Shown here: positions 890 through 32,448 of the stretch, piece by piece
Position numbering within the stretch: position 1 is the stretch's first letter
Layout of the letters: every line of letters starts with the position of its first letter
Notes under the pieces: model-generated
The model's database searches: none
Told to the model about the DNA's origin: nothing
What the model saw: only the letters and a program-made list of their open reading frames with translations
Assembly: GCA_902559345.1 (NCBI GenBank)
Contig: CACEHH010000011.1
Coordinates: forward strand, 1 to 32,586
Direction: 5' to 3'
Length of the DNA: 32,586 nucleotides
Source: an uncultured SAR86 cluster bacterium
GTDB taxonomy: Bacteria > Pseudomonadota > Gammaproteobacteria > Magnimaribacterales > D2472
Translations under genes and position numbers: made by a program

Positions 890-2341
890 TTATGGGATTT
901 TTGAAAATAATGATTGAAAATCAATAACAGAAGTTTCTTCAAGTTCCTTTTGGTTCATGCAAAGCTTGAATATCTTACTAGAAACTTCTTCATCGTATGT
1001 GATAGTTAAATTATCCATAAATTTCTTTTCTAATACCGGTATACCCTCTTCTCTTCTTCTTTTATGGCCAATAGGATATTCAACCTCAACTTCCTCGGTT
1101 GAAGTACCATCGTTAAAATGAATCTGAATTCTGTTTGCAATTGAACGTTTATCTGCCTCAAGATATTCTTTTGAATATCTTTTATCCTCGTTAATTATCA
1201 TTTTCTCTCTTAATGCATCAATTCTTGGATCTTTTGCAACATCATCTTCGTAATCTTCAGCAACTAAATTGCCTTTCAATAAACCAATGGCAACCATATA
1301 TTGCAAACAATGATCTCTGTCAGCAGGATTATCTAACTCACCTACTTTTGAAATAATTCTGATTGCAGACTCATGAGTGGTAATTTCAACAGATTTGATT
1401 TCATCGATTTTGTCCTTGATATTGTCATGCAGTTTTACTGCAGCCTCTACTGCAGTTTGAGCATGAAATTCTGCAGGAAAGCTAATCTTAAAAAGTATAT
1501 TTTCCATGACGTAGGTTTCAAAAGCTTGAGCCAAAGAAAGTTTTTCTCCATCAAACGAAACATCTTCAAAACCCCATACGGGTGCAGATAAAACTCCTGG
1601 ATATCCCATTTCACCTAACATAGTAATCATTGCTAGCCTAACTGCTCTGCTAGTAGCATCTCCAGCAGCCCAACTTTTTCTAGAACCAGCATTTGGAGCA
1701 TGTCTGTATGTTCTCAAACTTTGACCATCCACCCAAGCTTGGCTTACAGCATCTTTAATTTGATTGACAGAACCGCCCAATAATTTTGTAGCTACTGCCG
1801 TTGAAGCAACCTTTACTAATATGACATGATCAAGACCAACTTTATTAAAACTGTTTTCAAGTGCTAAAACACCTTGAATCTCATGCGCCATAATCATAGA
1901 TTCAAGAACAGTTCTTATGGTCAATGGCTCTTTTCCATTAGCAACATTTTGTTGTGAAATAAAATCACATACCGATAATATTGCGCCTAAGTTATCAGAA
2001 GGATGGCCCCATTCTGCCGCAAGCCAAGTATCGTTATAATCAAGCCATCTAACAATACATCCTATATCGAATGCTCCTTTTACTGGATCTAATTCATAAT
2101 CTGTACCAGGAACTCTTACACCAAAAGGCACTTTGGTATCTTTTACAATTGGGCCAAGCATTTTTGTGCAGGCAGGAAACTGCAGTGCTAAAAGACCACA
2201 CCCAATGGTATCCATTAAACAATTTCTTGCAGTATCTAAAGCTAAATCAGATTTAATTTCGTAATTTGAAACATAGTTAGCTATTTCAGAGATAAGTCCA
2301 TCAAAACCTGGTCTGACATTCAGATCAACATTTGATGACAT
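890..2341 (-). CDS. prpD: 2-methylcitrate dehydratase (MmgE/PrpD family)
   Basis: 483 aa ORF with PrpD-like sequence ([35 protein letters not shown]); adjacent to prpC and prpB. Confidence 0.93.
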
Positions 2342-2344
2342 ATT

Positions 2345-3466
2345 TTAAGACCTATCTGCGATTTCAACCCAGTCTGAAGATTCAACTCCGATGTAATCAG
2401 CACTTGGTCTAATAATTCTATTGTTTGCTCTTTGCTCCATGCAATGTGCAGCCCAACCAGAAACTCTGGACATAACAAATATTGGGGTAAACAACTTTGT
2501 TGGTATGCCCATATAAAAATATGCAGGAGCATGGAAAAAGTCTGCATTAGCAAACATCTTCTTTTCGTCAGCCATAACTTTTTCAACCTCTTCAGCTACT
2601 TGATAAAGAGTGTCTGTATCAGCAAGCTCAGATAATTGTTTGGCATATTCTTTGATAACAGCATTTCTTGGATCTCTAATTGAATAAACAGCGTGGCCGA
2701 ATCCCATTATTTTTTCTTTATTGTTAAGCATTTCAATAATATTAGATTTAGCTTCTTCTTTTGATGTCCAGTTTTCTATTAATTCCATAGCTTTTTCATT
2801 AGCGCCCCCATGCAATGGACCTCTTAATGAACCTATCGCAGCAACAACACATGAATGAATATCAGACATTGTTGAAGCACAAACTCTTGCTGTAAAAGTA
2901 GAGGCATTAAACTCATGTTCGGCATATAAAATTAGAGATACATCCATAACTTTCTTATGCAGGTCAGATGGTTTTTTGCCATGAAGGATATGTAAAAAAT
3001 GTCCAGCCATACTATCTTCATCATTTACCAAATCGATATCTTCTCCTTCGTGTGAGAACTTGTACCAGTAAGTAACAATTGATGGCATAGTTGCTATCAT
3101 TCTATTAATTGAATCTAATTGATTTGAAAAGTCACCTTCAGGCTCTAGATTTCCCAGCATAGATGTTCCAGTTCTCATTACATCCATTGGATGAGCCGTA
3201 GCAGGTATTTTTTGAAGAACTTCTTTTAAGGAGTTAGGGAGATCTCTATGACTTCTTAGTAATGCTTTGTAGTTATTTAATTCGTCTTGATTGGGTAATT
3301 TGTCATAAAGTAAAAGATAGGCTACTTCTTCAAATGTTGATTTTTCTGCAAGTAATTCAATTTTATGGCCCCTATAAGCAAGTCCTTCTATTTGACCAAC
3401 CGTAGAAAGAGATGTCTCTCCAGCTACTTGTCCTCTTAGGCCCGCTCCTTCTAATTTTTTTGTCAT
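2345..3466 (-). CDS. prpC: 2-methylcitrate synthase / citrate synthase family
   Basis: 373 aa; citrate synthase motifs (LRGPLHGGANEKAMELIE, GFGHAVYSIRDPR); flanked by prpB and prpD. Confidence 0.94.
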   Translation of the reverse strand: MTKKLEGAGLRGQVAGETSLSTVGQIEGLAYRGHKIELLAEKSTFEEVAYLLLYDKLPNQDELNNYKALLRSHRDLPNSLKEVLQKIPATAHPMDVMRTGTSMLGNLEPEGDFSNQLDSINRMIATMPSIVTYWYKFSHEGEDIDLVNDEDSMAGHFLHILHGKKPSDLHKKVMDVSLILYAEHEFNASTFTARVCASTMSDIHSCVVAAIGSLRGPLHGGANEKAMELIENWTSKEEAKSNIIEMLNNKEKIMGFGHAVYSIRDPRNAVIKEYAKQLSELADTDTLYQVAEEVEKVMADEKKMFANADFFHAPAYFYMGIPTKLFTPIFVMSRVSGWAAHCMEQRANNRIIRPSADYIGVESSDWVEIADRS

Positions 3467-3475
3467 TTATATCCC

Positions 3476-4345
3476 TTAATTTTTTGGCAATTTATCGTCA
3501 AGCTGTTTCTCAAAGTTGTAGTAATCTAAAACCTCATACAACTCCTCACGGGTCTGCATTATATCTAAGAGAGCCTCTTGTGTCCCGTCTTTAATTATTG
3601 AATTATATATTTTTTCTGCAGATTGGCTCATAGCTCTAAAAGCTGAAAGCGGATAAAGAACCATATCAACACCGACTTCTTTCAATTGTTCTTGAGTAAA
3701 TAAAGGTGTTTTTCCAAATTCAGTAATATTTGCTAAAACAGGAACCGAACAATGATTTTTGAGTTTTTTATAATGCTCTATTGATGTTACAGCTTCTAGA
3801 AATATGCCATCCACACCTTCTTCAATATAAGATTCACATCTTTTGATTGCTCCATCAATACCCTCAGATGCAATTGCATCAGTTCTTGCCATTACAAAAA
3901 AAGAATCATCTACTTTTGAATTAATCGCAATTTTCAATCTGCTTCTCATTTCTTCTATGGAAACTAATTGTTTATTGGGTCTATGTCCGCACCTTTTGTC
4001 AAAAACTTGATCTTCAATATGCACCGCTGCGCAACCAGCTTTACCCATTTCAATAATAGTTTCTGCGATCTGATCAGACTCACCCCAACCAGTATCAATA
4101 TCTACAAGTAAAGGTAGTGAGGTCGCAGAAGTAATTCTTTTAACATCAATTAAAACATCTTGCATAGTAGTGACGCCTAAATCGGGCAAACCATATGAAG
4201 CAGCTGCAACTCCACTACCTGATAAATAAATAGCGCTATGTCCAGATTTTTCAGCTAGTTTTGCAGAATATGCATTTATTGTTCCGGGTATGATTAAGGG
4301 TTTGTTTTTATTGAGAGCATCTCTAAATTTTTGACCTGACTGCAT
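3476..4345 (-). CDS. prpB: 2-methylisocitrate lyase
   Basis: 289 aa; isocitrate lyase/PEP mutase family (LPLLVDIDTGWGE, AAVHIEDQVFDKRCGHRPNKQLV). Confidence 0.95.
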   Translation of the reverse strand: MQSGQKFRDALNKNKPLIIPGTINAYSAKLAEKSGHSAIYLSGSGVAAASYGLPDLGVTTMQDVLIDVKRITSATSLPLLVDIDTGWGESDQIAETIIEMGKAGCAAVHIEDQVFDKRCGHRPNKQLVSIEEMRSRLKIAINSKVDDSFFVMARTDAIASEGIDGAIKRCESYIEEGVDGIFLEAVTSIEHYKKLKNHCSVPVLANITEFGKTPLFTQEQLKEVGVDMVLYPLSAFRAMSQSAEKIYNSIIKDGTQEALLDIMQTREELYEVLDYYNFEKQLDDKLPKN

Positions 4346-14486: not shown

Positions 14487-15680
14487 ATGAGTAATTTAGA
14501 TACATTTAGAAAAGAAACAAAAAAATGGCTTGATGAGAACTGCCCTCCTTCTATGAGAAGCGGAGCTGATCCAGATATACCAATTGATGAGGTCTGGGGC
14601 GGTAGAAATGCAGAATATAAAAACCCTGAATCAAAGCTATGGTTAGATAGGATGGGTGAAAAAGGATGGACTATGCCGACGGTTCCTGTTGAATATGGCG
14701 GGGGTGGGCTAACGAAAGATGAAGTAAAAATTCTAAATGAAGAAATGTTTTTCATCGGAGCAAAAGCTCCTCTATTAAGTTTTGGTATATGGATGCTTGC
14801 TCCAGTTCTATTAGAGTATGGAACTGAAGAACAAAAAAAAGAACATCTACCAAAAATAATAAAAGGTGAGATTAGATGGTGTCAGGGTTATTCTGAACCC
14901 GGCTCTGGTTCAGATCTTGCCAGTTTGGCTACAAAAGCAGAAGATACTGGTGAAACATTTCTTGTAAATGGTCAAAAAGTTTGGACATCCTATGCAGATA
15001 AGGCTGATTGGATTTTTGCTCTTGTTAGAACTGGTGCTAAAGAGCCAAAACATAATGGAATAAGTTTCTTATTAATTGATATGGAAACTAAAGGTGTGAG
15101 CACTAAACCTATAACTCTAATTTCTGGTAAATCGCCTTTTTGTGAAACTTTCTTTGATGATGTTAAAGTTCCTAAAGAAAATTTAATTGGTGACTTAAAT
15201 GCGGGTTGGACTATTGCAAAAAAACTACTTCAACATGAAAGAGCATTTATATCTAATTTCGGTCTTGCAGCTGGCATGGGAAGTAGCAGAGATATAGTCA
15301 CTATTGCAAAAAAACATCTAGGAGAGGAAAACGGTAAAATTAAAAATAGTTTTTATAGATCAGAAATTTCTTCTCATAAAATTAAAGAACATGCCTTTGG
15401 ATTAACTTTAAAAAGAGCTGGAGATGAAGGCGGTAAAGCAAGTGCTACTGCATCTATGTTTAAGCTTTATGGAACCGAACACAATAAGAAAAGGCATGAA
15501 TTAATGGTAGCAGCTTCTGGTGTAAATGGAGTTGCTTGGGATGGTGATGAATTTGATGATGGTGATAAAAATTTAACTAGAGCTTGGTTGAGAACAAAAG
15601 GAAATTCGATAGAAGGAGGAACTTCAGAAGTTCAGTTAAACGTAATATCAAAAAGAGTTCTTGGTCTTCCAACACAATAA
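14487..15680 (+). CDS. Acyl-CoA dehydrogenase (FadE-like)
   Basis: 397 aa; WCQGYSEPGSGSDLASLATKA, NGQKVWTSYADKADW, C-terminal IEGGTSEVQLNVISKRVLGLP. Confidence 0.95.
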   Translation: MSNLDTFRKETKKWLDENCPPSMRSGADPDIPIDEVWGGRNAEYKNPESKLWLDRMGEKGWTMPTVPVEYGGGGLTKDEVKILNEEMFFIGAKAPLLSFGIWMLAPVLLEYGTEEQKKEHLPKIIKGEIRWCQGYSEPGSGSDLASLATKAEDTGETFLVNGQKVWTSYADKADWIFALVRTGAKEPKHNGISFLLIDMETKGVSTKPITLISGKSPFCETFFDDVKVPKENLIGDLNAGWTIAKKLLQHERAFISNFGLAAGMGSSRDIVTIAKKHLGEENGKIKNSFYRSEISSHKIKEHAFGLTLKRAGDEGGKASATASMFKLYGTEHNKKRHELMVAASGVNGVAWDGDEFDDGDKNLTRAWLRTKGNSIEGGTSEVQLNVISKRVLGLPTQ

Positions 15681-15686
15681 AAGATT

Positions 15687-16826
15687 ATGAAACTAGTATT
15701 AACTGAAGAAGAACAATTTTTAAAAGATACTGCAAAAAGCTTTGCAGATGAAAGATCTCCAATAACACACTTTAGATCTCTAAGAGATAAGAATGATCCT
15801 GTTTTATGGGATGAAGAAGTTTGGAATGAAATGGTGAAGTTAGGGTGGCCAGGCATTCTTATTCCAGAGGAATATGGAGGTTCAAATTTCGGCATAACAG
15901 GAATTGGGGTTGTTCTTAATGAATGTGCAAAAACACTAACCCCCTCTCCTTTGTTTGCAACTGGAGTTTTGGGTGCATATGCCATCACAAATTTTGGAAC
16001 TGATGAACAAAAACAAAATTATCTTCCTAAAATTGTAAGTGGTGACTTAACTACTGCATTGGCAATAGACGAATCTAGTCATCATGATCCAAAGGAAACA
16101 GACGTGACAGCAAAAAAAGAAGGTTCAAATTTTGTTATAGACGGTAAAAAAACCTTTGTTATTGATGGTTCTAGTGCTGATTTATTGATTGTATTAGCGC
16201 GAACATCTGGCAATAAAGGAGATTTTGCTGGATTAACCTTATTTTTAGTTGATAGCAATTCAGCGGGAATTAAAAAAATAAAACTTGATATGGCGGATTC
16301 TAGAAATTATGCAAATATAGTTTTTGATAATGTTGAGATAAGTAATTCTAATGTTTTGGGAGATATAGAAACTGGCGGTGAAACTGTTGAAGATATTCTT
16401 GATATAGGGAGAATTGCCATAGCTTCAGAAATGCTTGGAAATGCTGAAGCAGCTTTTGATACAACCTTAGACTATCTTAAACAAAGAAAACAATTTGGTG
16501 TACTTATTGGTTCATTTCAAGCTCTTCAGCATAGAGCTGCAGAAATGTTTTGTGAGCTTGAACTCACAAAATCTTCAGTCATGGCTGCAATGAAAGCTGC
16601 AGAGGAAGGATCTAATGAATTACAAAGACTTTCTAGTTTAGCAAAAACAATGGCTGGTGAAACTCTTCATTTAGTTTCAAACGAGGCTATTCAAATGCAT
16701 GGTGGAATTGGTGTCACAGATGAATATGATATTGGTTTTTTTCTTAAAAGAGCTAGGGTTGCTGAACAAATTTTTGGAAGTTCAAAATTCCATACAGAGA
16801 GATATGCAAATCTCAGTGGATTTTAG
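15687..16826 (+). CDS. Acyl-CoA dehydrogenase family protein, partner subunit
   Basis: 379 aa; RKQFGVLIGSFQALQHRAAEMF, AIQMHGGIGVTDEYDIGFFLKRA; lacks the GGTSE-type C-terminal motif of the upstream neighbour. Confidence 0.93.
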   Translation: MKLVLTEEEQFLKDTAKSFADERSPITHFRSLRDKNDPVLWDEEVWNEMVKLGWPGILIPEEYGGSNFGITGIGVVLNECAKTLTPSPLFATGVLGAYAITNFGTDEQKQNYLPKIVSGDLTTALAIDESSHHDPKETDVTAKKEGSNFVIDGKKTFVIDGSSADLLIVLARTSGNKGDFAGLTLFLVDSNSAGIKKIKLDMADSRNYANIVFDNVEISNSNVLGDIETGGETVEDILDIGRIAIASEMLGNAEAAFDTTLDYLKQRKQFGVLIGSFQALQHRAAEMFCELELTKSSVMAAMKAAEEGSNELQRLSSLAKTMAGETLHLVSNEAIQMHGGIGVTDEYDIGFFLKRARVAEQIFGSSKFHTERYANLSGF

Positions 16827-19459: not shown

Positions 19460-21400
19460 TTGCTTAAACTTAAATATTTTTTTAAAAAATCTTTCATAAT
19501 ATTTTGCTTTCTTTTGTCAGTTCTAACTGTTTTGTTAATCTTTAATTATTTTAAACCATTGGAAAAAATTAAAATAAACCACTCTCTATATGATGAAGTT
19601 AAGATCTTAAATATAGATGGAAAAAAATTTAGAGATCTAAATAAAAATAATAAATTAGATGTATATGAAGACTATAGAGTCGATTCTGTGAAAAGAAGTG
19701 AGGACCTTATTAGTCAAATGAGTCTTGAAGAAAAGATTGGTCAAATGTTTCATCCACCTTTTATTCTAAAGCCTGATTTATGGATGTTTATCTATGAAAT
19801 AGCGATAAGAGGTAATAGATTAACTGAATCTCAGATTCTCTTTGATAATATTTCGCATTTCAACCTTTATGGGAACCCTAGCCCCGAGGAATTAGCTAAT
19901 AAAATAAATGATTTTCAAGAAATAGCATCAAGAACAAGATTGGGTATACCAATTACAATAAGTTCTGATCCTATCCATGAGGTTCCTAAAGGTGGAGGAG
20001 TTGCTTCTTTTTCAATTGATGGGTTTTCAAAATGGCCTTCTCAGCTTGGATTTGCAGCAACAAATAATCCGTCAATAGTTAAAAATTTTGGTGAAATTGC
20101 AAAGGAAGAATATCTTGCAGTAGGCATTAGAACTGCCCTGCATCCAATGTCTGATTTAGCGACAGAGCCTCGATGGGCTAGAAACTTTGGTACATTTGGC
20201 TCTAATGCATTACTTTCCAGCGAAATGACCATAGCATATATGAATGGATTTCAAGGCAATAAAATTAATAACAGAAGTGTTCATACAATGGTTAAGCACT
20301 TTCCCGGTGGCGGGCCGCAAGAAGATGGATTAGATCCTCATTTATTTAGTGGGAAAAATCAAACCTATCCAGCCGATAATTTTGATTATCACTTAATACC
20401 TTTTGAAGAAGCAATTGCAAATAACTTAAAGGTAATAATGCCTTATTATGGAATACCCATTTCTCAAACAAGTGAAGACGTGGCTATGGCATACAACAAA
20501 TACATTCTTACAAATTTATTAAGAGAGCGCCTTGATTTTAATGGAGTTATTTGTTCAGATTGGGGGATTATAACTGGTCGGCATTGGGGAGTGGAATCTC
20601 TTTCTATTGAAGAAAGATATAAAAAATCTATCAACGCAGGGATTGATCAATATGGAGGCGAATCAGATACTTCATATTTAATTAAACTAGTTAAAGAAAA
20701 TAAAATTCCTGAAGAAAGAATCAATGAGTCGGTAAAGAGAATCTTAATTAATAAATTTGAATTAGGTTTATTTGATAATCCTTATGTGAATGAGAATGAA
20801 GTAAAGTCAAAAGTTAATACCAAAGAAAATATAGAAGCCGGGCTAGACGCACAAAGAAAATCTATAGTTTTACTTGAAAATAAAGATGTCTTGCCTCTTA
20901 AGAAAAAAACTAAAATTTTTATAGATGGTCTAGATAAAGATATTGGTAAAAAATATGGTAGTGTTGTTGATAATCCTTCTGATGCTGATGTAATAATAAT
21001 GTATGTACATACGGTATTTAATGGCAATCAAGAATCTGGTTTAAATCGATTATTTGATAATTTTTTAAGCACTTTATTTCCAAATGGGGATTTAAATTTT
21101 AATAGTGAAATAAAATCGAAAATTAAAAAATACTCCAAAAATAATGAGCTAGTAATAGTTGTGGATTTAAACAGACCTGCGATTTTAGAGGATATTAAAG
21201 ATTATTCATCGGCTCTTATTGGAACTTTTGGTGTTTTAGATGAAATTATATTTGAAGGAATTTTTGGGGAGTTTAATCCATCAGGCAGGCTGCCATTTGA
21301 AATACCCTCATCAATGGAAACTGTCCTAAATCAAAAAGAGGATTTGCCTGACGACTCTGAAGATCCAACTTATGAATATGGATATGGTATTAGTTATTAA
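19460..21400 (+). CDS. Glycoside hydrolase family 3 (beta-glucosidase-like), N-terminal membrane anchor
   Basis: 646 aa from a TTG start; FRDLNKNNKLDVYEDYR, VHTMVKHFPGGGPQEDGLDPH, nucleophile context GVICSDWGII, GRLPFEIP, YEYGYGISY. Confidence 0.9.
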   Translation: MLKLKYFFKKSFIIFCFLLSVLTVLLIFNYFKPLEKIKINHSLYDEVKILNIDGKKFRDLNKNNKLDVYEDYRVDSVKRSEDLISQMSLEEKIGQMFHPPFILKPDLWMFIYEIAIRGNRLTESQILFDNISHFNLYGNPSPEELANKINDFQEIASRTRLGIPITISSDPIHEVPKGGGVASFSIDGFSKWPSQLGFAATNNPSIVKNFGEIAKEEYLAVGIRTALHPMSDLATEPRWARNFGTFGSNALLSSEMTIAYMNGFQGNKINNRSVHTMVKHFPGGGPQEDGLDPHLFSGKNQTYPADNFDYHLIPFEEAIANNLKVIMPYYGIPISQTSEDVAMAYNKYILTNLLRERLDFNGVICSDWGIITGRHWGVESLSIEERYKKSINAGIDQYGGESDTSYLIKLVKENKIPEERINESVKRILINKFELGLFDNPYVNENEVKSKVNTKENIEAGLDAQRKSIVLLENKDVLPLKKKTKIFIDGLDKDIGKKYGSVVDNPSDADVIIMYVHTVFNGNQESGLNRLFDNFLSTLFPNGDLNFNSEIKSKIKKYSKNNELVIVVDLNRPAILEDIKDYSSALIGTFGVLDEIIFEGIFGEFNPSGRLPFEIPSSMETVLNQKEDLPDDSEDPTYEYGYGISY

Positions 21401-22656
21401 CTAATTTTCTTTCTGGCTTTGAATTCTAAAACTGTTGCATTAATACAATATCTTGGCATTCCATTTGGACCATCATCAAAAACATGGCCAAGATGTATAT
21501 CTGAAGATACTGACCTAATTTCAGTTCTTCTCATACCATAACTATTATCAGGTAACTCATATACAGAGCCATCAACTGGCTTGGTAAATGAAAGCCATCC
21601 AGAACGAGAAACAAATCTATCATCAGTATCAAATAGTGGTTCTCCGCTTAACTTATCTATAAAAACTCCGTCAGGCGTATTTTTAAAAATCTGATATTCT
21701 TTACAAAACCTTGAGTCAGTTCCTTTATTAAAAGCAACATTGTATGCCTCGGTATTACCCAATTTAAATCTACCTAAAATTTGATAGAAATCTTTAGATT
21801 CTATATATCCCTGATAACTATAAACCTCTTTTCCATCCTCTAAAAAAATTACAGAGGGAGTTGCCCAAGTTGGCGATTTAATTTGTAATCCATGAAGCTG
21901 ATCTGAGGTCCTGTATGTTAATGGGATGCTGCCTTTGTACTTATTTGTGACATCATTTTTAAGTTTTTCGCAGTAAGGACAATAATCTTGTGAATCTAAA
22001 ATTAAAATATGCTTTCCAGCAAGTAAGTTAGTGTTATCAAGAAAATCTTTTGCATTTTGATTAAAAACAATGCCTGTAGAAAGATCTGGACAGTAGCCAT
22101 TTGGATTCTTTTTTAAATAGTCTTGATGATAGTCCTCCGCGAGATAAAAATTATCTAGCGGTTCAAGTTTTGTAGCAATTTTTCCATACCCACCATCATT
22201 TAGCAAAATCTGATACATATTCATTAATCTTATTGCGAGATTTTTTTGGGATTCGTCTTCAAAAAGAATTGTTGATCTGTATTGAGTTCCAACATCATTG
22301 CCTTGTCTGTTGTATTGTGTTGGATTATGACTTTCAAAGAAATGCATTAAAATTTCTTCTAAAGTTATTGCATTACTATTGAATGTAATTTTCACAACTT
22401 CAGCAAAATTGTTTTCGTTGTATTTATTCTTAAATTGAATTATTGATCTATAGTTAGGCTTAACACCATAGCCATTTGCATAACCAGATTCTGCATCAAT
22501 AACTCCTTCAAGCGCCTCATAGCCCTTTTCAGCACCCCAAAAACAACCGGAACCAAGATAAATAGTTTGAATATGGTTCGTTTGATTTCCACAAATACTT
22601 GGAGCTGCAAGAAACGCAATCAAGAAGTATGCAAATGATTTTTTATTTATCTTCAT
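21397..22656 (-). CDS. Periplasmic MsrA - thioredoxin-like - MsrB fusion (methionine sulfoxide reductase)
   Basis: 419 aa; signal peptide; MsrA motif GSGCFWGAEKGYE; thioredoxin-like CPYC centre (ILILDSQDYCPYCEKLKND); MsrB C-terminus SRSGWLSF..., HLGHVFDDGPNGMPRYCINATVLEF. Confidence 0.93.
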   Translation of the reverse strand: MKINKKSFAYFLIAFLAAPSICGNQTNHIQTIYLGSGCFWGAEKGYEALEGVIDAESGYANGYGVKPNYRSIIQFKNKYNENNFAEVVKITFNSNAITLEEILMHFFESHNPTQYNRQGNDVGTQYRSTILFEDESQKNLAIRLMNMYQILLNDGGYGKIATKLEPLDNFYLAEDYHQDYLKKNPNGYCPDLSTGIVFNQNAKDFLDNTNLLAGKHILILDSQDYCPYCEKLKNDVTNKYKGSIPLTYRTSDQLHGLQIKSPTWATPSVIFLEDGKEVYSYQGYIESKDFYQILGRFKLGNTEAYNVAFNKGTDSRFCKEYQIFKNTPDGVFIDKLSGEPLFDTDDRFVSRSGWLSFTKPVDGSVYELPDNSYGMRRTEIRSVSSDIHLGHVFDDGPNGMPRYCINATVLEFKARKKIS

Positions 22657-23260
22657 ATTTATAACCTTTGCTTTTTAAAAATGCCGGTCTTGAAAATAAA
22701 TTTTCTGACCACCTTTTGATATTTGGCTTAAGCGCTTGCTCTATTCCTAATGTTGTAGCTAAATTTATGGCATAACTCACGCATATATCAGCCAGTGTAA
22801 AACGATTAGAACATAAATACTCTTTATCTTCTAAAGACTTTTCTAAAAGTTTAAGCCTTGAAACAAACCATCTGCTATAACCATCTACTGCAGCATCAGC
22901 AACTCCTGGTTCTTGAAATTTATATCTAAGAACAACAGTTTGAGGAAAAGTCAAAGTTGCATCAGCATGAAATAGCCAATTTAAATAATTTGGATAATCT
23001 TTTTCATCTGCTTTTACTTGAAGGTCGGTTGGCCCATATTTTTCAACAATATACTGGGAAATTGCAACTGATTCAGTCATTTTAATATCCCCATCAATCA
23101 TATATGGTACAGTTCCAAGAATATTTATATCTAAATATTCTTTCATAAAGACTCTAGGAGGAAATGGCATCATTACTAATTCATAGTCTAAGCCCATCTC
23201 TTCAGCAGTCCATATTGGTCTAACTGCCCTTGAGTTTTCTGTACCGTAAATTTTTATCAT
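22643..23260 (-). CDS. Glutathione S-transferase family protein
   Basis: 205 aa; N-terminal thioredoxin fold-like MIKIYGTENSRAVRPIWTAEEMGLDYELV, TVPYMIDGDIKMTESVAISQYIVEKYG; C-terminal LADICVSYAINLA. Confidence 0.9.
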   Translation of the reverse strand: MIKIYGTENSRAVRPIWTAEEMGLDYELVMMPFPPRVFMKEYLDINILGTVPYMIDGDIKMTESVAISQYIVEKYGPTDLQVKADEKDYPNYLNWLFHADATLTFPQTVVLRYKFQEPGVADAAVDGYSRWFVSRLKLLEKSLEDKEYLCSNRFTLADICVSYAINLATTLGIEQALKPNIKRWSENLFSRPAFLKSKGYKYEDK

Positions 23261-23355: not shown

Positions 23356-25017
23356 ATGAAACAAAAAAATATCTTACCAAAATTAAAGTCAAATCTAGAT
23401 ACAAAATCTGAGCAATATCTTAAAAATAAAGAAATGATGCATGAAAAGCTTAAATTTCTTGATGGTCTTCTTGATCTCGCTGATATCGGTGGTGGAATGC
23501 ATCACCATGAGAGGTTGGCAAAAAGAGGAAAAATGCCAGTTAGGCAAAGAGTTATGAATGTTCTAGACCAAGATAGTCCATTCTTAGAAATACAACCATT
23601 TGCAGCCTATGGAACTAATAACTATAACGTAGGTGGCGGGTGTGTGTCAGGTGTTGGAATTATCTCTGGTGTTGAATGTGTTATCTTTGCAAATGATCCA
23701 ACTGTTAAAGCTGGAGCAATGACGGTCTATGTTGGTGAAAAATGGAAAAGAGCAAAAGAAATTTCCAGAGAAAATAAAATTCCTTTTATTAGTTTTGTAG
23801 AATCTTCAGGAGGAGACCTAAGCGTTTCAAATTCTGATAGTGGAGATACTCCGCCTATTGCACCGACCATTCAACAAGGTCACTTTGCCTCAACTGGAAG
23901 ATTTTTTTATGAAATGACAGAACTTTCAAAATTGAGAATACCTGTAATATCTGTTGTTTTTGGTTCCTCTACTGCTGGTGGAGCATATCAGCCTGGAATG
24001 TCGGATTACAATATATTTATTAAAGATCAATCTAAAGCTTTTCTTGCAGGACCTCCTCTAGTAAAAATGGCTACTGGAGAAGAATCAGATGATGAAACTC
24101 TAGGAGGCGCTCAGATGCATTCCGAGGTTTCTGGCCTCTCAGATTATCTGGCTGAAGATGAAATGGATGCTCTTAGAATTTGTAGAGAAGTTGTATCTCA
24201 TCTTAATTGGTCAAAACTTGGGCCAGATCCTGAAATTGAACCATCAGAACCGGCTTACGACAATGAAGAACTGCTGGGTATTTTAAGTGAGGATCTTAAA
24301 TCTGCTGTTGATATTAAAGAAATCATAGCTAGATTTGTTGATGGCTCAAAGTTTGAGGAGTTTAAACCTCTGTATGGATCTTCTTTAGTATGTGGATGGG
24401 CTTCTGTTCATGGGTATCGAATTGGTATATTGGGTAATAATGGGCCGATATACCCAGAATCAGCAGAGAAAGGTGCTAGTTTTATTCAACTTTGTAACAA
24501 AAGAAATATACCACTAATATTTCTTCACAATGTTACTGGATTTCTTGTTGGGAAAGATTTTGAAAGACAGGGAATTATTAAAAAAGGTTCTCAACTTATA
24601 AATGCTGTTTCTAATTCAATGGTTCCTCACATAACATTTATCGTGGGAGCTTCATATGGAGCAGGAACATATGCAATGTCTGGTAAAGCTTTCAATAACA
24701 GATTTACTTTCTTATGGCCAACAGCAAAAATTGCAGTAATGGGTCCGGAACAAATGGCCGGCGTGATGTCTATTGTAAGAAAAGCAAAAGCAAAAAGAGA
24801 TGGAAAGCCTTTTGATAAAAAAGCTGATGAGCAACTCAAAGCTATGGTGGTAGATTATTTAGAAAAGTTATCTCATGGTCTTGTAGCTAGCAGCATGCTT
24901 ACTGATGATGGAATTATTGATCCAAGAGATACTCGAGATGTTATTGGATTTTGTTTATCCATAGTTAGTAATAATGAAATTGAAGGGGCAAAAGAATATG
25001 GAGTATTTAGATTATGA
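23356..25017 (+). CDS. Acyl-CoA carboxylase, carboxyltransferase (beta) subunit
   Basis: VFGSSTAGGAYQPGMSD, GPPLVKMATGEESDDETLGGAQMHSEVSGLSDYLAEDE, IGASYGAGTYAMSGKAF, GPEQMAGVMSIV. Start proposed at ATG 23356, not the TTG at 23278, which would put the dyad inside the CDS. Confidence 0.93.
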   Translation: MKQKNILPKLKSNLDTKSEQYLKNKEMMHEKLKFLDGLLDLADIGGGMHHHERLAKRGKMPVRQRVMNVLDQDSPFLEIQPFAAYGTNNYNVGGGCVSGVGIISGVECVIFANDPTVKAGAMTVYVGEKWKRAKEISRENKIPFISFVESSGGDLSVSNSDSGDTPPIAPTIQQGHFASTGRFFYEMTELSKLRIPVISVVFGSSTAGGAYQPGMSDYNIFIKDQSKAFLAGPPLVKMATGEESDDETLGGAQMHSEVSGLSDYLAEDEMDALRICREVVSHLNWSKLGPDPEIEPSEPAYDNEELLGILSEDLKSAVDIKEIIARFVDGSKFEEFKPLYGSSLVCGWASVHGYRIGILGNNGPIYPESAEKGASFIQLCNKRNIPLIFLHNVTGFLVGKDFERQGIIKKGSQLINAVSNSMVPHITFIVGASYGAGTYAMSGKAFNNRFTFLWPTAKIAVMGPEQMAGVMSIVRKAKAKRDGKPFDKKADEQLKAMVVDYLEKLSHGLVASSMLTDDGIIDPRDTRDVIGFCLSIVSNNEIEGAKEYGVFRL

Positions 25018-26936
25018 CCTTTGATTCATTATTAATAGCTAACAGAGGTGAAATAGCTTGCAGAATTATCAAAACTGCAAAAGAGATGGGCATTAGATCT
25101 GTCACGGTTTATGTCGATGCCGACAAAGATGCTCTATTTGTTAAGCAAGCAGATGAATCAATAAGATTAAAGGACGGGGGATATCTTGATGGAAATCAAA
25201 TAATCGAAGCTGCAATAAGAACAGGAGCACAAGCAATACATCCTGGTTATGGATTTCTTTCAGAAAATGCTTCTTTTGCAAGAAAGGTAAAAAAAGCTGG
25301 AATAATATGGGTTGGTCCATCTCCAAATGTTATTTCAGTGATGGGTGATAAATTAAAGGCTAAAGAATTAGCAATTAAAGCTGATGTACCTACCCTGCCA
25401 ATGACATCAAAACTAACCGAAGCAAAGAAAATTGGATTTCCTATTCTTATTAAAGCTGCTGCTGGTGGTGGTGGAAAAGGAATGAGAATTGTGAATAAAG
25501 AAAAAGATCTTAAAGAGTCGATAGTAAGTGCTAAAAGAGAAGCAAAAAGTGGGTTTAATGATGAAAGGATTTTTATTGAAAGATATGTCGAAAAATCAAG
25601 ACATATTGAAATTCAAATTTTAGGCGATTCTGCAGGAAATATAGTTCACTTGGGCGAAAGAGAATGCTCAATACAAAGAAGGTATCAAAAAATAATTGAA
25701 GAATCTCCTTCATCAAGAATATCTAAAGAAACTAGGCATAAGATGGGTGAAGCGGCAGTAAAACTGGCAAAACAAATTAGATATGAATCAGCCGGAACTG
25801 TTGAATTTTTATTTGATGATAAAACTGAAGAATTTTGGTTTTTAGAAGTCAATACAAGACTTCAGGTAGAGCACCCGGTTACTGAGGAAGTAACTGGAAT
25901 AGATCTTGTAAGTGAACAACTCAAAATAGCTAGAGGTGAGTCTCTTAAATTCTCTCAAGAGGATATTTCATGGCAAGGATCTTCAATTGAGGCAAGGCTT
26001 TATGCAGAAGATCCAGCTAACAACTTTCTCCCAGAGATTGGAACTTTATTAGCATTTGAAAAAAATAATTCTGCTGAGGCAAGGTGGGATACTGGCGTAA
26101 AGACTGGAACGGTTGTTGGAACAGATTTTGATCCAATGCTTGCAAAAATAATCTCATATGCCCCAACCAGAACTGATGCAGCTAGTAAATTAGCCAAGGC
26201 TCTTCAATCTGCTCACATTGGGGGAATTAAAACAAACAGAGACTTCTTAATTAATTGTCTAAAAACTAAAGAATTTCTAGATGGTGATACTACCTCTGAT
26301 TTTATTGAAAGAGTTGATCCATGCCGAGGACTTGAAATTGATGAAACAGAAATTGAACACGTTATGGTTATTGCAGCAATGTGGATACAGCAACAAAATA
26401 GAAATAATTCTAATGTAGCTAAGTTTATGCCCTCAGGTTGGACAAATGGAAGGCTTCCAAATCAAATAATAACTTTTGAATTTGAAGACAAAGAGTTCGT
26501 TGTTAAATATAAAAAACAACGAAATCATAAATTTATCTTTTCTACAAATAAAGAAGCTTTTATCTATTCAGATGATTCAAAAGGCATTGATTTAATTTTT
26601 GATGGTAAAAGGCATTATTCCCGTATCACATTATCAGATAACAATATTTTGGTTCACATGCCTTTTGGCGATGTTATGCTAAAAATTAAGCCGAGATTTA
26701 ACATACCAGGTTCAGAAATTACTCAAGGTGGTCTTGTTGCGCCAATGCCTGGAAAAGTAATTGATATTAAAGTAAAAAAAGGTAAAAAGGTTAAAACTGG
26801 AGATACCTTGGTTATTATTGAAGCAATGAAAATGGAGCATTCTATAAAGGCTACTGAAGACGGAACAGTTTCTGAGCTTTTGATTTCATTAAATGATCAG
26901 GTAGAAAATGGTGCTTTGTTAATGGTGGTGAAATAG
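25014..26936 (+). CDS. Acyl-CoA carboxylase, biotin carboxylase + BCCP (alpha) subunit
   Basis: LLIANRGEIACRIIKTAKEMGI, IKAAAGGGGKGMRIV, FLEVNTRLQVEHPVTEEVTGIDLV; biotinylation site EAMKMEHS. ATGA overlap with the upstream gene. Confidence 0.95.
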   Translation: MTFDSLLIANRGEIACRIIKTAKEMGIRSVTVYVDADKDALFVKQADESIRLKDGGYLDGNQIIEAAIRTGAQAIHPGYGFLSENASFARKVKKAGIIWVGPSPNVISVMGDKLKAKELAIKADVPTLPMTSKLTEAKKIGFPILIKAAAGGGGKGMRIVNKEKDLKESIVSAKREAKSGFNDERIFIERYVEKSRHIEIQILGDSAGNIVHLGERECSIQRRYQKIIEESPSSRISKETRHKMGEAAVKLAKQIRYESAGTVEFLFDDKTEEFWFLEVNTRLQVEHPVTEEVTGIDLVSEQLKIARGESLKFSQEDISWQGSSIEARLYAEDPANNFLPEIGTLLAFEKNNSAEARWDTGVKTGTVVGTDFDPMLAKIISYAPTRTDAASKLAKALQSAHIGGIKTNRDFLINCLKTKEFLDGDTTSDFIERVDPCRGLEIDETEIEHVMVIAAMWIQQQNRNNSNVAKFMPSGWTNGRLPNQIITFEFEDKEFVVKYKKQRNHKFIFSTNKEAFIYSDDSKGIDLIFDGKRHYSRITLSDNNILVHMPFGDVMLKIKPRFNIPGSEITQGGLVAPMPGKVIDIKVKKGKKVKTGDTLVIIEAMKMEHSIKATEDGTVSELLISLNDQVENGALLMVVK

Positions 26937-26943
26937 GCATTAT

Positions 26944-27558
26944 ATGGAAAATATTGAATATAAAAAGAATTCATTCCATAACAAGAACTCAAAAATATAT
27001 ACAAAGAGACACTATGAAATTATAGATGCTCTTGAGGAATTACTAGAACAGGGTGTCCCCGAAATAACTATGTCCGAAATTGCAAAGAAATTAAAAATTT
27101 CTTTGAGAACTCTATATGAAATTGCACCTAGTAGAGACCAATTAATTTTAATGACAATGGATAATATTCTTAAAAAATTAGGTAAATATGCAATGGATTC
27201 TGTCTCAGAAATTGATTCGCCAATAAAAAAATTAGAGAAATATCTTTTTATTGTTAATCAAGCTGTAGGGCCAAAGTTTGATAGATTTCTAAAAGACATG
27301 GAAAAAATTAATGGCTCAAAGAAAACTGCAGATTACCATGAAAACTTTATTAAAAGTTATATTACAAAGCTTTTAGAAGAGGCTATTGCAAAAAAAGAGA
27401 TCAAATCAGTTGATGTCAAAGCTTTGTCTATTCTTTTAGGAGGTATTGGAAGGGAATTTTTTAAGGAAGATAATAAAAAATCGATTGACTTAACTCCTGA
27501 GGAATCTGCTAACTCAATTACAAGAATTATTTTAAATGGGATTAAATTAGCAAACTAA
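26944..27558 (+). CDS. TetR/AcrR family transcriptional regulator
   Basis: 204 aa; HTH MSEIAKKLKISLRTLYEIAPSRDQLILMTMDNIL. Confidence 0.85.
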   Translation: MENIEYKKNSFHNKNSKIYTKRHYEIIDALEELLEQGVPEITMSEIAKKLKISLRTLYEIAPSRDQLILMTMDNILKKLGKYAMDSVSEIDSPIKKLEKYLFIVNQAVGPKFDRFLKDMEKINGSKKTADYHENFIKSYITKLLEEAIAKKEIKSVDVKALSILLGGIGREFFKEDNKKSIDLTPEESANSITRIILNGIKLAN

Positions 27559-29330
27559 TGAAAGAAGAATTTATAAGAATTGCAAACTGTAGTGGCTACT
27601 ATGGTGATAAATTATCTGCAGCAAAAGATTTGGTAGATGGTGGTCCTATTGATGTGCTTACTGGAGATTATCTTGCTGAATTAACAATGGCAATTCTTTT
27701 TGGTCAAAAAATGCAAAGAGGTGAGGACAAAGGCTACGTTGGCACCTTTCTAAAACAAATTAAAGAAATTGCTATGTCTTGCAAAGAGAAAAATATCAAA
27801 ATTGTTACCAATGCCGGTGGTTTAAACCCTAAATCAATGGCATTAGAAATTGAAAAAATATTAGAAGAGCAATCATTAGACATGAAAGTAGCCTATATAA
27901 GTGGTGATGATTTAATGCCAAAAATTTCTGATTTAACAGAATCTGGAGAAAATTTTATAAATATTGATAAAAATATAAAACTAAATGACTCAGGTTTTTC
28001 TCCTTTAACAGCGAATGTATATTTAGGTGCTTGGGGCATCAAAGAAGCTCTTGATAAAAGTGCTGATATTGTTGTTTGTCCAAGAGTAACTGATGCTGCG
28101 GTGGTGATTGGTCCTGCTGCTTGGAAATTTAATTGGAAAAGAGATAACTATGATGCACTAGCTGGTGCGCTTGCTGCAGGACATATTATTGAATGTGGTT
28201 GCCAAGCCACTGGTGGAAATTATTCTTTCTTCAAAGAAGTTCCTAGTTTTGATAATGTTGGTTATCCGATTGCTGAAATTTTTGAGGATGGTAGTTTTAA
28301 TATTACTAAACATTCAAATACAGGTGGCTTGGTATCTGTAGGAACTGTAACTGCCCAACTTTTATATGAAATAAGCTCGCCAGCATATATAAATCCAGAT
28401 GTCGTAGCTCATTTTGATACACTCAAAATTGAAGAAATTGAAAAGGATAAAGTATTTATAGCTGGTTGTAGGGGCAGTTCTCCACCAAATAAACATAAAG
28501 TATGCATTAATCTTGCTGGAGGTTTTAGAAATGGAATGGAGATCATTCTTACAGGTTTAGATATTGAAGATAAAGCTAAAGTATTTACTAATGCCCTATT
28601 CAATTCTGTAGGAGGCAAGGATCAATTTGATGATGTTTCAATTCAGCTACATAGAACAGATAAAGATAACCCTTCAAGCAACGAAGAAGCAATGGCCTCA
28701 CTTTTACTTTCGGTGAAATCCAAAGATCAAAATCTAGTTGGCAGACTTTTTAGTGCAAAAATAATTGAATTAGCGTTAGCAAATATACCTGGATTCTTTG
28801 CACAAGGTGGGGTTAAGTCTAGCGGTCCGGTCATTGTTTATTGGCCAGCTCTTGTAGATAGTAAACATATTAAAGAAAAAGTTCATATTGATGGAGATGA
28901 AATAGAAATTATACCTACAAGCCAGTTAGAATTTGAAGAAATTTATTATCAAAAAGAACCTATTAAAATAGAAAATGTTGAAATAGAAAATGAAAAAGAT
29001 ATATATTTTGGTGACCTTTATGGAACTAGATCTGGCGATAAAGGCGGCTGTGCAAATCTAGGTATTTGGGCTAAGAACTCTCATTCCTTTGCATTTCTTT
29101 ATAATTTTTTAACTGTAAATAAACTTAAAGAATTATTACCAGATCTAAAAGAATTTAAAATTGAAAGATACGAACTTTCAAACATATACTCACTTAATTT
29201 CTATATTCATGACATATTACAAGATGGTGTCTCTTCTAATGATAGGAAAGATGCTCAAGCTAAATCTTTGGGTGAGTATTTAAGAGCAAAAAAAATAAAA
29301 GTTCCACAAAGTATTATTGGAGATTCATAA
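27558..29330 (+). CDS. AtuA-like (DUF1446) acyclic terpene utilization family protein
   Basis: 590 aa; IANCSGYYGDKLSAAKDLVDGGPIDVLTGDYLAELTMAIL, IVTNAGGLNPKSMA, VCPRVTDAAVVIGPAAW, HIIECGCQATGGNYS; C-terminal YGTRSGDKGGCANLGIWA. Confidence 0.92.
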   Translation: MKEEFIRIANCSGYYGDKLSAAKDLVDGGPIDVLTGDYLAELTMAILFGQKMQRGEDKGYVGTFLKQIKEIAMSCKEKNIKIVTNAGGLNPKSMALEIEKILEEQSLDMKVAYISGDDLMPKISDLTESGENFINIDKNIKLNDSGFSPLTANVYLGAWGIKEALDKSADIVVCPRVTDAAVVIGPAAWKFNWKRDNYDALAGALAAGHIIECGCQATGGNYSFFKEVPSFDNVGYPIAEIFEDGSFNITKHSNTGGLVSVGTVTAQLLYEISSPAYINPDVVAHFDTLKIEEIEKDKVFIAGCRGSSPPNKHKVCINLAGGFRNGMEIILTGLDIEDKAKVFTNALFNSVGGKDQFDDVSIQLHRTDKDNPSSNEEAMASLLLSVKSKDQNLVGRLFSAKIIELALANIPGFFAQGGVKSSGPVIVYWPALVDSKHIKEKVHIDGDEIEIIPTSQLEFEEIYYQKEPIKIENVEIENEKDIYFGDLYGTRSGDKGGCANLGIWAKNSHSFAFLYNFLTVNKLKELLPDLKEFKIERYELSNIYSLNFYIHDILQDGVSSNDRKDAQAKSLGEYLRAKKIKVPQSIIGDS

Positions 29331-29331
29331 G

Positions 29332-30118
29332 ATGAAAAAATTATCCTTAAAAGGTTTAAAGTTTAGGGCAACAGAACTCGGTATAGAAAATAATATTATG
29401 ACGATAACTCTAAACAGGCCCAAAAAAAAGAACGCTTTAAATAATGTAATGTTGAATGAAATTAATTATGCCCTAGCTTATGCAAAACAAGAAAAAAATA
29501 TTAGAGTGGTTGTGTTTGCAGCAAAGGGTGATATTTTTTGTGCAGGTGCAGATTTATCAAGAACTAAATCTGAATCGAATGTTCCAAAATTAGATAATGC
29601 TGATGATATTAGTCTATCGCTAAGGCATCTATACAAACCAGTCATATGTAAAATTCAAGGACCTGTTCTTGCTGGCGCCCTTTTGCTTGTAACTAACTCA
29701 ACTCATGCGGTTGCAATTAATGAAGCAACTTTTTCAGCGCCAGAAATCCATAGAGGGTTATGGCCATTTATGGTTATGGCAGGTCTGTTTAGAGTAATGC
29801 CCAAAAGAGCAGGACTTGATTTTATAATGAGAGGAAAGCCTATTGATTCAAAAAAAAGCGAAGGATTGGGGTTTAATAAACAAGTCTGTTAAAAAAGAAG
29901 AACTTAATGAAAAAGTTGATAAACTAGCAAAAGAACTTGCAGGTTTGGCACCAGAAACAATGCAATTTGGTCTTGAAGCATATGAAAAACAAGATGCAAA
30001 AAGCTTTGATGAGGCGCTTCCATACTTAAAAGAACAAATAGCAAAATGCTTTGAGGGAAAAGATGCTAAAGAAGGAATAGCTGCTTTTCTTGAGAAGAGA
30101 AAACCAAATTGGGACTAA
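29332..30118 (+). CDS. Enoyl-CoA hydratase/isomerase family protein, frameshifted at an A8 run (29850-29857)
   Basis: Frame 1: NRPKKKNALNNVMLNE..FCAGADLS..APEIHRGLWPFMVMAG, stop at 29892. Frame 2 continues AKDWGLINKSVKKEELNEKVDKLAKELAGLAPETMQFG...FLEKRKPNWD. Skipping one A joins them as PIDSKKAKDWGLINKSV. Confidence 0.9.
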
Positions 30119-30130
30119 CCAGGAGATATT

Positions 30131-31358
30131 ATGGATTTAAGTTTTGGATCTGAATATAAAGATTTTAAAAATGAAGTAAAAAAATTCTGTAAAAAGTATT
30201 CAGGTGTTCATTTTTCTGACTCATCTAAGGTTCCTTTATCAGGAGCTTTCAAGTCTGGTGAAATTAAAATGAAGAGATCGGATTGGCAAAAAAAATTAAT
30301 AAAAAAAGGTTACTTTGCAAGATCAATTCCTAAAGAATATGGGGGCTATGGCGGTGAAAGTGACATTATTAAAAGTAGGATAATTGCTCAAGAATTTGCA
30401 AAAGCAAAAATTCCACCTCCAATGGGTGGACAGGGAATAGATATGTTGGTGCCTACTCTTCTTGAGCTTGGAACAGAAAAACAAAAACAACAATATATTA
30501 AACCGACATTACATGGTGAAATAATTTGGTGCCAAGGATATTCTGAACCTAATGCTGGAAGTGATCTTGCAAGCCTACAAACTAAAGGTGAGTTAATTGA
30601 TGGTAATTGGGTTATTAACGGTCAAAAAATTTGGACAAGTACTGCGCAGTTTTCACAAATGATGTTTTGTTTAGTTAGGACTGAGCCTGAGGCATCTAAA
30701 CATGCCGGAATAAGTTATCTATTAATTCCAATGGATACTCCCGGAATTGAAATTAGACCTTTGGTTGATATGACTCTTAATGCTGGATTCAATGAAGTGT
30801 TTTTTACAGATGTAACAATTCCAGAAGATAATATTGTTGGAAAGCGTGGTGAAGGCTGGGCTGTAGCAAATGCGACACTAGGGCATGAAAGAGGCTCACT
30901 TTCTGATCCAAATGCAATGATGAATAGATTAAATTCTCTTATTGAAAGAATGAAATGTGAAACCATAAACGGTGAAAAAGCTATTGATAATCCAGTCTAT
31001 AGAGATAAACTTATGAAAATTCAAGGCAAAGTAATTGCGTTCCAATCTAACTCACTAAGAGTTTTATCAGCAAAATTAAACAAAAATCAAGATGTAAAAA
31101 TTGCAAGAATGTTGCAAAAACTAATTGGAACTGAATTAAGACACGAGCTTGAAGGCTTTGCAATAGATATTATGGGTGAATTAGGAACATTATATGAGAA
31201 CAGTCCAAATTTAAGAGATGGAGGTTCATGGCAAATAGGATATATGTATTTTTTAGGATTGATAATTGGTGGTGGAACAAGCCAAATACAAAAAAAATAT
31301 TATTTCTGAGAGAGGCCTTGGAATGCCAAAAGAACCAAAAGTTCAACAAGGAGCTTAA
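30131..31358 (+). CDS. Acyl-CoA dehydrogenase, frameshifted near the C-terminus at an A8 run (31290-31297)
   Basis: WCQGYSEPNAGSDLASLQTKG, GQKIWTSTAQFSQ; as written ends SQIQKKYYF* at 31309. Skipping one A gives GGGTSQIQKNIISERGLGMPKEPKVQQGA* ending at 31358, matching the usual ACAD C-terminus (RNIIAERVLGLP-type). Confidence 0.92.
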
Positions 31359-31359
31359 T

Positions 31360-32448
31360 ATGTATTTTGGATTATCAGAAGACCAGATTTTTTTCCAAGA
31401 TAATGTAAAAAAGTTTTTAGAAGATCAAGCTCCTTTAGATATCGTTAAAAAGATAGTTGAAGGTAATAGTTCTGAAATTAAAGATCAACTTCATCAAGGT
31501 TTAATAAATTTAGGTATTAACAATATTTTAGTTCCGGAAGAGAATGGCGGCCTAGGTTTAGATTTATTATTTGCAACAGCAATAAGTCAGAGTCTTGGTT
31601 CCAGCATAGCAACACTTCCATTTATTGGTCCCTATGTTATGGCTCCAATTGCAATAAAGCATGGGGCTAGTGGAAAACAAAAAAATAACTTATTTGAAGG
31701 AATGTCTAATAATTCTATAAACTTTGGAATTGGATTCTCAGAATACTTTGGCTCGAGAGACTCTAGCGGTATAACTTTCTCAAAAAATAAAGTGAATGGT
31801 AAGACCTTATTTGTTTTAGATTCTGACTATGCTACTCATGTATTACTTTGTGATAATACTGGTAAAATTGGAATTGTTTCTCTAGATTCAAAAGGCGTAG
31901 ACGCTATAAACTTAACAACTGTTGATAAGACAAGAATATATAAAGAAATGTGCTTTAATAATACTCCTATTGAAATATTAGAAGACACAAAAAATACTAC
32001 TAAAGCTATTGATAAATCTATTGATGCAGGCAGGATTGTTGTATCAGCTGATTCAGTAGGAGCTTCCCAAACAATGATTGATAAAGCAGTTGAATATTCT
32101 AAAGAGAGAAAACAATTTAATAGAGTAATTGGGAGTTTTCAAGCTGTTAAGCATATGTGTGCAGAAATGACTGCTGAATTAGAGCCATGTTTTTCGCTTG
32201 TATGGCATGCAGCTCATAGCTTTGATAATGATGAAACAGATTCTAGATTAATGGCATGTCATGCAAAGTCACATATTTCAGAAGTATCAAAAATGGTCTC
32301 AAAAAAAGCAACCGAAGTTCATGGGGGAATGGGATTCACTGATCTCTTGGGCTTGCACTACTGGTTCAAAAGAATAGGCCTTAATAGACATATTTTAGGA
32401 TCACCTGAGGTAGTTCGAAAAGAAGCGGCAAAAGTGCAAGGATTATAG
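31360..32448 (+). CDS. Acyl-CoA dehydrogenase family protein, partner subunit
   Basis: MYFGLSEDQIFFQDNVKKFLEDQAPLDIVKKI...RKQFNRVIGSFQAVKHMCAEMTAE...EVHGGMGFTDLLGLHYWFKRI. Start at ATG 31360 preceded by aaggag; the ORF-track start at 31228 lies in the upstream gene. Confidence 0.93.
   Translation: MYFGLSEDQIFFQDNVKKFLEDQAPLDIVKKIVEGNSSEIKDQLHQGLINLGINNILVPEENGGLGLDLLFATAISQSLGSSIATLPFIGPYVMAPIAIKHGASGKQKNNLFEGMSNNSINFGIGFSEYFGSRDSSGITFSKNKVNGKTLFVLDSDYATHVLLCDNTGKIGIVSLDSKGVDAINLTTVDKTRIYKEMCFNNTPIEILEDTKNTTKAIDKSIDAGRIVVSADSVGASQTMIDKAVEYSKERKQFNRVIGSFQAVKHMCAEMTAELEPCFSLVWHAAHSFDNDETDSRLMACHAKSHISEVSKMVSKKATEVHGGMGFTDLLGLHYWFKRIGLNRHILGSPEVVRKEAAKVQGL

Follow-up and report, generated by a model that had tools for sequence, protein, structure and literature searches.

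In Mycobacterium tuberculosis, the operon Rv0976c-Rv0971c comprises AtuA, fadE13, accD2, accA2, fadE12 and echA7. The genes Rv0971c-Rv0976c (given as echA7, fadE12, accA2, accD2 and fadE13) are induced 20-300 fold under hypoxia and in stationary phase, with a role that the published text leaves undetermined, and Ehebauer et al. (2015) left the substrate and role of AccD2-AccA2 open: Mycobacterium smegmatis without accD2-accA2 showed wild-type growth on isovalerate and no build-up of methylcrotonyl-CoA, and its lipids were unchanged by the deletion. In the carboxyltransferases (CTs) of the MCC and GCC types, Phe191 in MCC versus Gly162 in GCC sets substrate size, MCC carrying in addition a 3-residue insertion before the Phe; this Phe/Gly position governs which substrate is preferred, and the activity of wild-type GCC on methylcrotonyl-CoA is very low (PMC4673880). 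An extended N-terminal helix of CT-beta separates both types from PCC-beta, which lacks it (PMC4673880). AtuA has tentatively been named HIHG-CoA:acetate lyase (PMC4847356); the title of a published reference reports LiuE as the lyase that takes part in the terpene catabolism of P. aeruginosa, so that AtuA may have another function.

The window, the whole stretch of 32,586 nucleotides analysed here, belongs to contig C11 of a 0.92-Mb, 34-contig, 72%-complete genome (GC 0.33). Open reading frames and Pfam matches bear out the coordinates, strand and gene identities that a first-pass annotation had given for a seven-gene operon at 23356-32448 (+), and the overlaps at 25014-25017 (CT/BC) and 27558 (TetR/AtuA) are exact (Table 1). 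Two gene calls had to be revised. The hydratase had been read as a protein of 191 aa, but its frame is interrupted near 29860-29880; the C-terminal portion, encoded up to 30118 in a different frame, corresponds to the final third of Pfam ECH_1. The frame of the first acyl-CoA dehydrogenase (ACAD) is broken at an A-run near 31290, and the second ACAD, for which a start at 31228 had been proposed, thus begins at 31360, with a good ribosome-binding site ahead. In relatives (for example L060-L062 and L073), each of the two interrupted genes is one continuous open frame, so that the true gaps of the operon are about 0-12 bp. Both frame breaks are most likely due to an error in assembly or sequencing, with recent decay as the lesser possibility. 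Promoter and terminator matches did not rise above those in shuffled sequences. Elsewhere in the window, positions 21397-22656 encode a 419-aa fusion of MsrA, a thioredoxin-like domain and MsrB, in that order. Beyond the first-pass annotation, the present analysis adds the actinobacterial AccD2-AccA2 counterpart of the operon, the lyase fold of AtuA and the two frame breaks.

Table 1. Features of the operon and its flank (positions are those of the window)
Feature	Coordinates	Strand	Evidence
CT (carboxyltransferase, beta subunit), probable third-lineage MCC/GCC type, AccD2-like	23356..25017	+	Pfam Carboxyl_trans; PDB; tree
Hypervariable insert and HFAST-G segment of CT, at the MCC Phe191 / GCC Gly162 site	23821..23898	+	Alignments; model
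BC (biotin carboxylase and BCCP, alpha subunit), AccA2-like	25014..26936	+	Pfam; BC tree
TetR-family regulator within the operon	26944..27558	+	Pfam TetR_N; retained in the window's own family
AtuA (DUF1446 and AtuA_ferredoxin), proposed C-C lyase, fused CmlA-CmlB-like	27558..29330	+	Pfam; AlphaFold2 model; fold match 9evf; co-linear profile match
ECH (enoyl-CoA hydratase, crotonase family), interrupted frame	29317..30118 (start about 29317)	+	Pfam ECH_1 on both parts; intact in L060-L062
First ACAD, large-type, PimC / ChsE4-like, interrupted frame	30131..31358	+	Pfam, NCBIfam; best PDB match 4x28_A
Second ACAD, small-type, PimD / IpdE2-like, without middle-domain match	31360..32448	+	Pfam, NCBIfam; PDB matches including 6wy8_A; ribosome-binding site
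Divergent glutathione S-transferase, neighbour kept in several relatives; candidate pathway member at most	22643..23260	-	Pfam; synteny

CT and BC have the architecture of the MCC/GCC type, the best PDB matches of CT being MCC and GCC, and the CT model contains a long N-terminal helix at 19-44 whose start aligns with those of MCC and GCC. We inferred a maximum-likelihood tree of 78 CTs with a PCC-type outgroup, from which the PCC-type sequences split off by a long branch (support 100). This distant position, the N-terminal helix that PCC-beta lacks and the unchanged lipids of the M. smegmatis deletion strain make it highly improbable that the enzyme is an alpha-carboxylase of the propionyl- or acetyl-CoA type serving biosynthesis or propionate use, a reading that a methylcitrate-cycle cluster for propionyl-CoA (prpD, prpC, prpB) in the window at 890-4345 would favor. 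Within the tree, the MCC clade (support 100; human, P. aeruginosa and M. tuberculosis AccD1) and the GCC/AtuC clade (support 100) are joined with a support of 99. The CTs of the window's order (support 100) lie outside both clades, and so do the actinobacterial AccD2-type CTs (support 99, one Dietzia sequence aside). When the order and the actinobacterial CTs were constrained to group together, the likelihood was better than that of the free search by 9.35 and the best obtained, although the grouping is not significant, whereas constraining the order with MCC cost 27.8 (AU p 0.139) and with GCC 17.7 (AU p 0.241), a sister position being rejected in neither case. On the BC tree, the window's order groups with the actinobacterial AccA2-type proteins (support 98).

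Outside the order, the best CT matches among 299 Pseudomonadota genomes reach an identity of at most about 47%, and every one of them that was placed in the tree sits within the MCC or the GCC clade; actinobacterial CTs reach 48-53% identity to the window CT. Together, these sequence comparisons place the carboxylase in a probable third lineage, which includes actinobacterial AccD2-AccA2 and belongs to neither the leucine nor the Pseudomonas terpene pathway. Two genomes outside the window's class (L084, L085) contain an AtuA-CT-ECH-BC cluster with ACADs nearby, in which CT lies on the GCC side of the tree, distant from AtuC, as a further variant.

The unusual CT segment ahead of the AGGAY motif that had drawn attention to this gene is real, and each of the 38 CT sequences of the order (35 genomes) carries it at the corresponding position. 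Counting positions along human MCC, Phe191 falls in DHF-GRTF. The window CT reads HFAST-GRFF at this site, and the pattern HFA-x-[ST]-GR holds for 38/38 sequences, preceded by an insert that varies in length and sequence across the order and that, at about residues 152-179 of the window CT, is modeled with a pLDDT under 50. The MCC signature (Phe191, the 3-residue insertion and FPDREHFGR) is absent, with Ser or Thr occupying the site in every sequence. Compared with GCC, the site likewise has no Phe and has a GCC-like spacing, but Gly162 is replaced by Ser/Thr and the preceding insert is longer. This spacing is also that of AccD2; actinobacterial CTs carry F[VI]PGG in 80/80 genome loci and FVFAG in Rhodococcus plasmid copies. 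With no Phe gate, a spacing like that of GCC and AccD2, and Ser/Thr at the site, the pocket is most naturally read as one that would accept a substrate larger than methylcrotonyl-CoA. The suggestion that the operon holds an Atu/Liu-like toolkit with an open substrate is thus supported: CT could have fallen inside the MCC or GCC clade with a conserved pocket, but it lies outside both, and the selectivity site holds neither Phe nor Gly.

The same evidence bears on a variant leucine/isovalerate pathway, in which the carboxylase would be the only MCC-family enzyme of these small genomes, acting on 3-methylcrotonyl-CoA, and AtuA would replace HMG-CoA lyase. Most genomes of the window's genus do encode just one such CT and lack any other MCC, and AtuA has a lyase fold. 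We nevertheless consider this pathway unlikely, given a CT that lies outside the MCC clade and lacks the Phe191 signature, the control of preference by the Phe/Gly residue, with wild-type GCC so weak on methylcrotonyl-CoA (PMC4673880), and the normal behavior on isovalerate of M. smegmatis devoid of accD2-accA2, in which methylcrotonyl-CoA did not accumulate.

Genomes of the window's order, which is probably SAR86-like, are small (about 0.8-1.8 Mb). The class is presumably Gammaproteobacteria, since a genome whose CT closely resembles the P. aeruginosa geranyl-CoA carboxylase carries the same class label. A CT match was found in 48 of the 60 searched, the sole match in a few of them being weak and of another CT type, and the identity of clear orthologues ranges from 59-61% up to 95%. 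AtuA is present exactly once per genome in 15/15 genomes searched. The CT-BC and AtuA-ECH pairs are neighbors in every locus of the order read whole, the second pair being inverted relative to the first in four of them (L065, L069, L070 and L075), and this constant association argues that the gene set is not due to chance. The complete set of seven genes occurs in six loci, all from the window's own genus or family; the two ACADs are joined to the operon in the window's own family, and the TetR gene is found there and in one other locus. In one sub-lineage of the window's own genus (L072 and L073, from genomes G009 and G024), genes for an acyl-CoA ligase, an MFS transporter and a second hydratase lie upstream, the ligase and the transporter being what one would expect if a free acid were imported. 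The operon of this sub-lineage is a mosaic, with a CT that groups with another family of the order and an AtuA that groups with the window's genus. Conserved flanking genes in other families were considered as candidates for missing enzymes; read by sequence, they begin like XseA and an EamA-type permease, and we took them as unrelated. In one family of the order, a Baeyer-Villiger-type flavin monooxygenase gene (L071, 3396-5015) is divergent from CT.

The actinobacterial counterpart was assessed on 80 loci from named genomes. Complete Mycobacterium loci read AtuA-FadE13-CT-BC-FadE12-EchA7, with the last two genes exchanged in one locus (L129), and thereby agree in content and order with the published Rv0976c-Rv0971c operon. 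M. tuberculosis is not among the 80 loci, and the link to its operon is therefore made through other Mycobacterium species and the published gene list. Some of the actinobacterial relatives adjoin Mce, SCP2, thiolase/OB-fold and MaoC genes.

The hydratase of the window retains one Glu of the catalytic site instead of the usual two, as do AtuE, LiuC and EchA7; the two positions are those that we take to be catalytic across the crotonase family. The large ACAD resembles PimC, 4x28 and 6wy8_B, and the small ACAD, in which Pfam finds no middle domain, resembles PimD, IpdE2 and 6wy8_A. These resemblances make it probable that both ACADs assemble into a single heteromeric dehydrogenase. A second ACAD pair, the large type followed by the small type, lies about 7 kb upstream at 14487-16826; downstream of it are genes for an acyltransferase, an RraA-like protein and a nitronate monooxygenase, in a synteny that is retained in relatives.

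A sterol side chain had been listed among the possible substrates, and carboxylation at C-28 of C24-branched sterol side chains would assign the operon a defined step, one that published work attributes to an MCC-like carboxylase (PMC3546705, PMC10049677). The likeness of the large ACAD to the cholesterol-type 4x28 and of the small one to the Tcur enzyme 6wy8, as well as the Mce, SCP2, thiolase/OB-fold and MaoC neighbors of some actinobacterial relatives, are in line with this role. However, the sterol ring hydroxylase KshA is absent in 14/15 related genomes that do contain AtuA and the operon, and the window's own family lacks the ChsH2-type zinc ribbon. A sterol substrate is for this reason very unlikely. 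One larger genome of the order (G036; loci L064, L180, L201 and L202) has four KshA_C matches and four ChsH2-type zinc ribbons, together with the only HMG-CoA lyase found, and may belong to a steroid degrader.

Sequence and profile searches of the PDB with AtuA returned no match, and the fold search alone succeeded. The AlphaFold2 model, built from 35 sequences (pLDDT 84.9, pTM 0.87), has a single PDB fold match with E under 0.001, namely 9evf_A (E 1.7e-20, TM 0.68 by target length), from a citramalate lyase structure containing ADP and pyruvate; 9evf_B is also among the fold matches, with a TM of 0.66 and a weak E-value. The depositors name the chains of 9erq and 9evf as AtuA-family / citramalate lyase subunit A (CmlA) and DUF4387 / subunit B (CmlB). 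A two-subunit DUF1446-DUF4387 pair from another proteobacterium (L196), whose protein belongs to Pfam AtuA (PF07287), matches 9erq/9evf at 4.7e-161 and 2.9e-25. Alignment with hhalign of the window's AtuA family against the CmlA/CmlB type gave a probability of 96.7% (E 3.2e-10) over 422 co-linear columns that run through the small-subunit motif and include the R..D, EC, YE and RS motifs, which are invariant in the AtuA alignment. The fold match and the co-linear profile match together indicate that the AtuA of the window is a fused CmlA-CmlB-like protein, and the modeled likeness to a citramalate lyase structure supports a role for AtuA as a lyase, constituting the main new evidence in its favor.

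On the AtuA tree, the window's order and the actinobacteria are set apart from proteobacterial AtuA (support 100). This separation makes a true Atu pathway of the Pseudomonas type, acting on citronellol or geranyl compounds, distinctly unlikely: enzyme types and the AtuA family are shared, but CT and AtuA fall outside the Pseudomonas AtuC and AtuA clades, AtuA is only 31-34% identical to its Pseudomonas namesake, Ser/Thr stands where GCC has Gly162, and the AtuB and AtuG dehydrogenase genes are absent from the operon. HMG-CoA lyase, which completes the Liu pathway, had been noted as missing from the window, and this absence extends at the curated cut-off to 13 of the 14 near-complete related genomes; among the 15 genomes searched, the enzyme exceeds the cut-off in one (G036), versus AtuA in all 15.

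We propose, with a probability of roughly 0.6, that the operon is a self-contained cassette for the removal of beta-branches (decarboxymethylation) through dehydrogenation, gamma-carboxylation, hydration and cleavage, with AtuA as the C-C lyase. From homology we infer an order of steps in which a beta-methyl-branched acyl-CoA would first be desaturated between its alpha and beta carbons by the putative ACAD heteromer and then carboxylated on the methyl (gamma) carbon by the BC/CT pair, after which the hydratase would add water to the resulting glutaconyl-type product. AtuA would then split the 3-hydroxy-3-carboxymethyl-acyl-CoA into acetate (or acetyl-CoA) and a 3-oxoacyl-CoA, taking over the job done elsewhere by HMG-CoA lyase. 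The most likely substrate is an isoprenoid acid, and a phytol-derived or other acyclic one is our guess; phytol is abundant in the sea, which makes it attractive in this respect. More tentatively, AccD2-type carboxylases might constitute a third gamma-carboxylase branch that, with AtuA as a non-HMG-type lyase, makes up the whole pathway for a larger isoprenoid acid, one retained across the streamlined genomes of an entire order of marine gammaproteobacteria and common to the hypoxia-induced operon of M. tuberculosis. If true, this would give abundant marine bacteria a route to use branched isoprenoid carbon without HMG-CoA lyase, and the link to the marine cassette, together with a lyase function of AtuA, makes the M. 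tuberculosis AccD2-AccA2 question testable.

Compared with known systems, AtuA shares its fold, a co-linear profile and the R..D, EC, YE and RS motifs with CmlAB (9erq, 9evf), but at about 15-20% identity, as one fused protein instead of two subunits, and the named substrate of CmlAB is citramalate, a free hydroxy-acid and not a CoA ester, ADP being bound in 9evf. The Liu pathway offers the same dehydrogenase, biotin carboxylase pair and hydratase; the window differs from it in a CT outside the MCC clade that lacks the Phe191 motif, and in having AtuA, with the HMG-CoA lyase gene absent from most genomes. The Pseudomonas Atu pathway (AtuA-H) presents the same chain of enzyme types, including AtuA, and a pocket without the Phe gate, yet the CT and AtuA of the window fall in separate clades, SDR genes are absent, and CT differs by Ser/Thr in place of Gly162 and by the variable insert upstream. 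In the AccD2-AccA2 operon, BC and AtuA group with those of the window, CT lies outside MCC and GCC alike, and the enzyme kinds and a small residue at the selectivity site are the same. Its CTs, however, read F[VI]PGG and lack the long insert of the window CT, its gene order differs, and many of these actinobacterial loci also carry a TIGR03084 gene. With ACADs and hydratase only 26-31% identical to those of the window and their best matches mixed, the core shared by the two systems is confined to CT, BC and AtuA.
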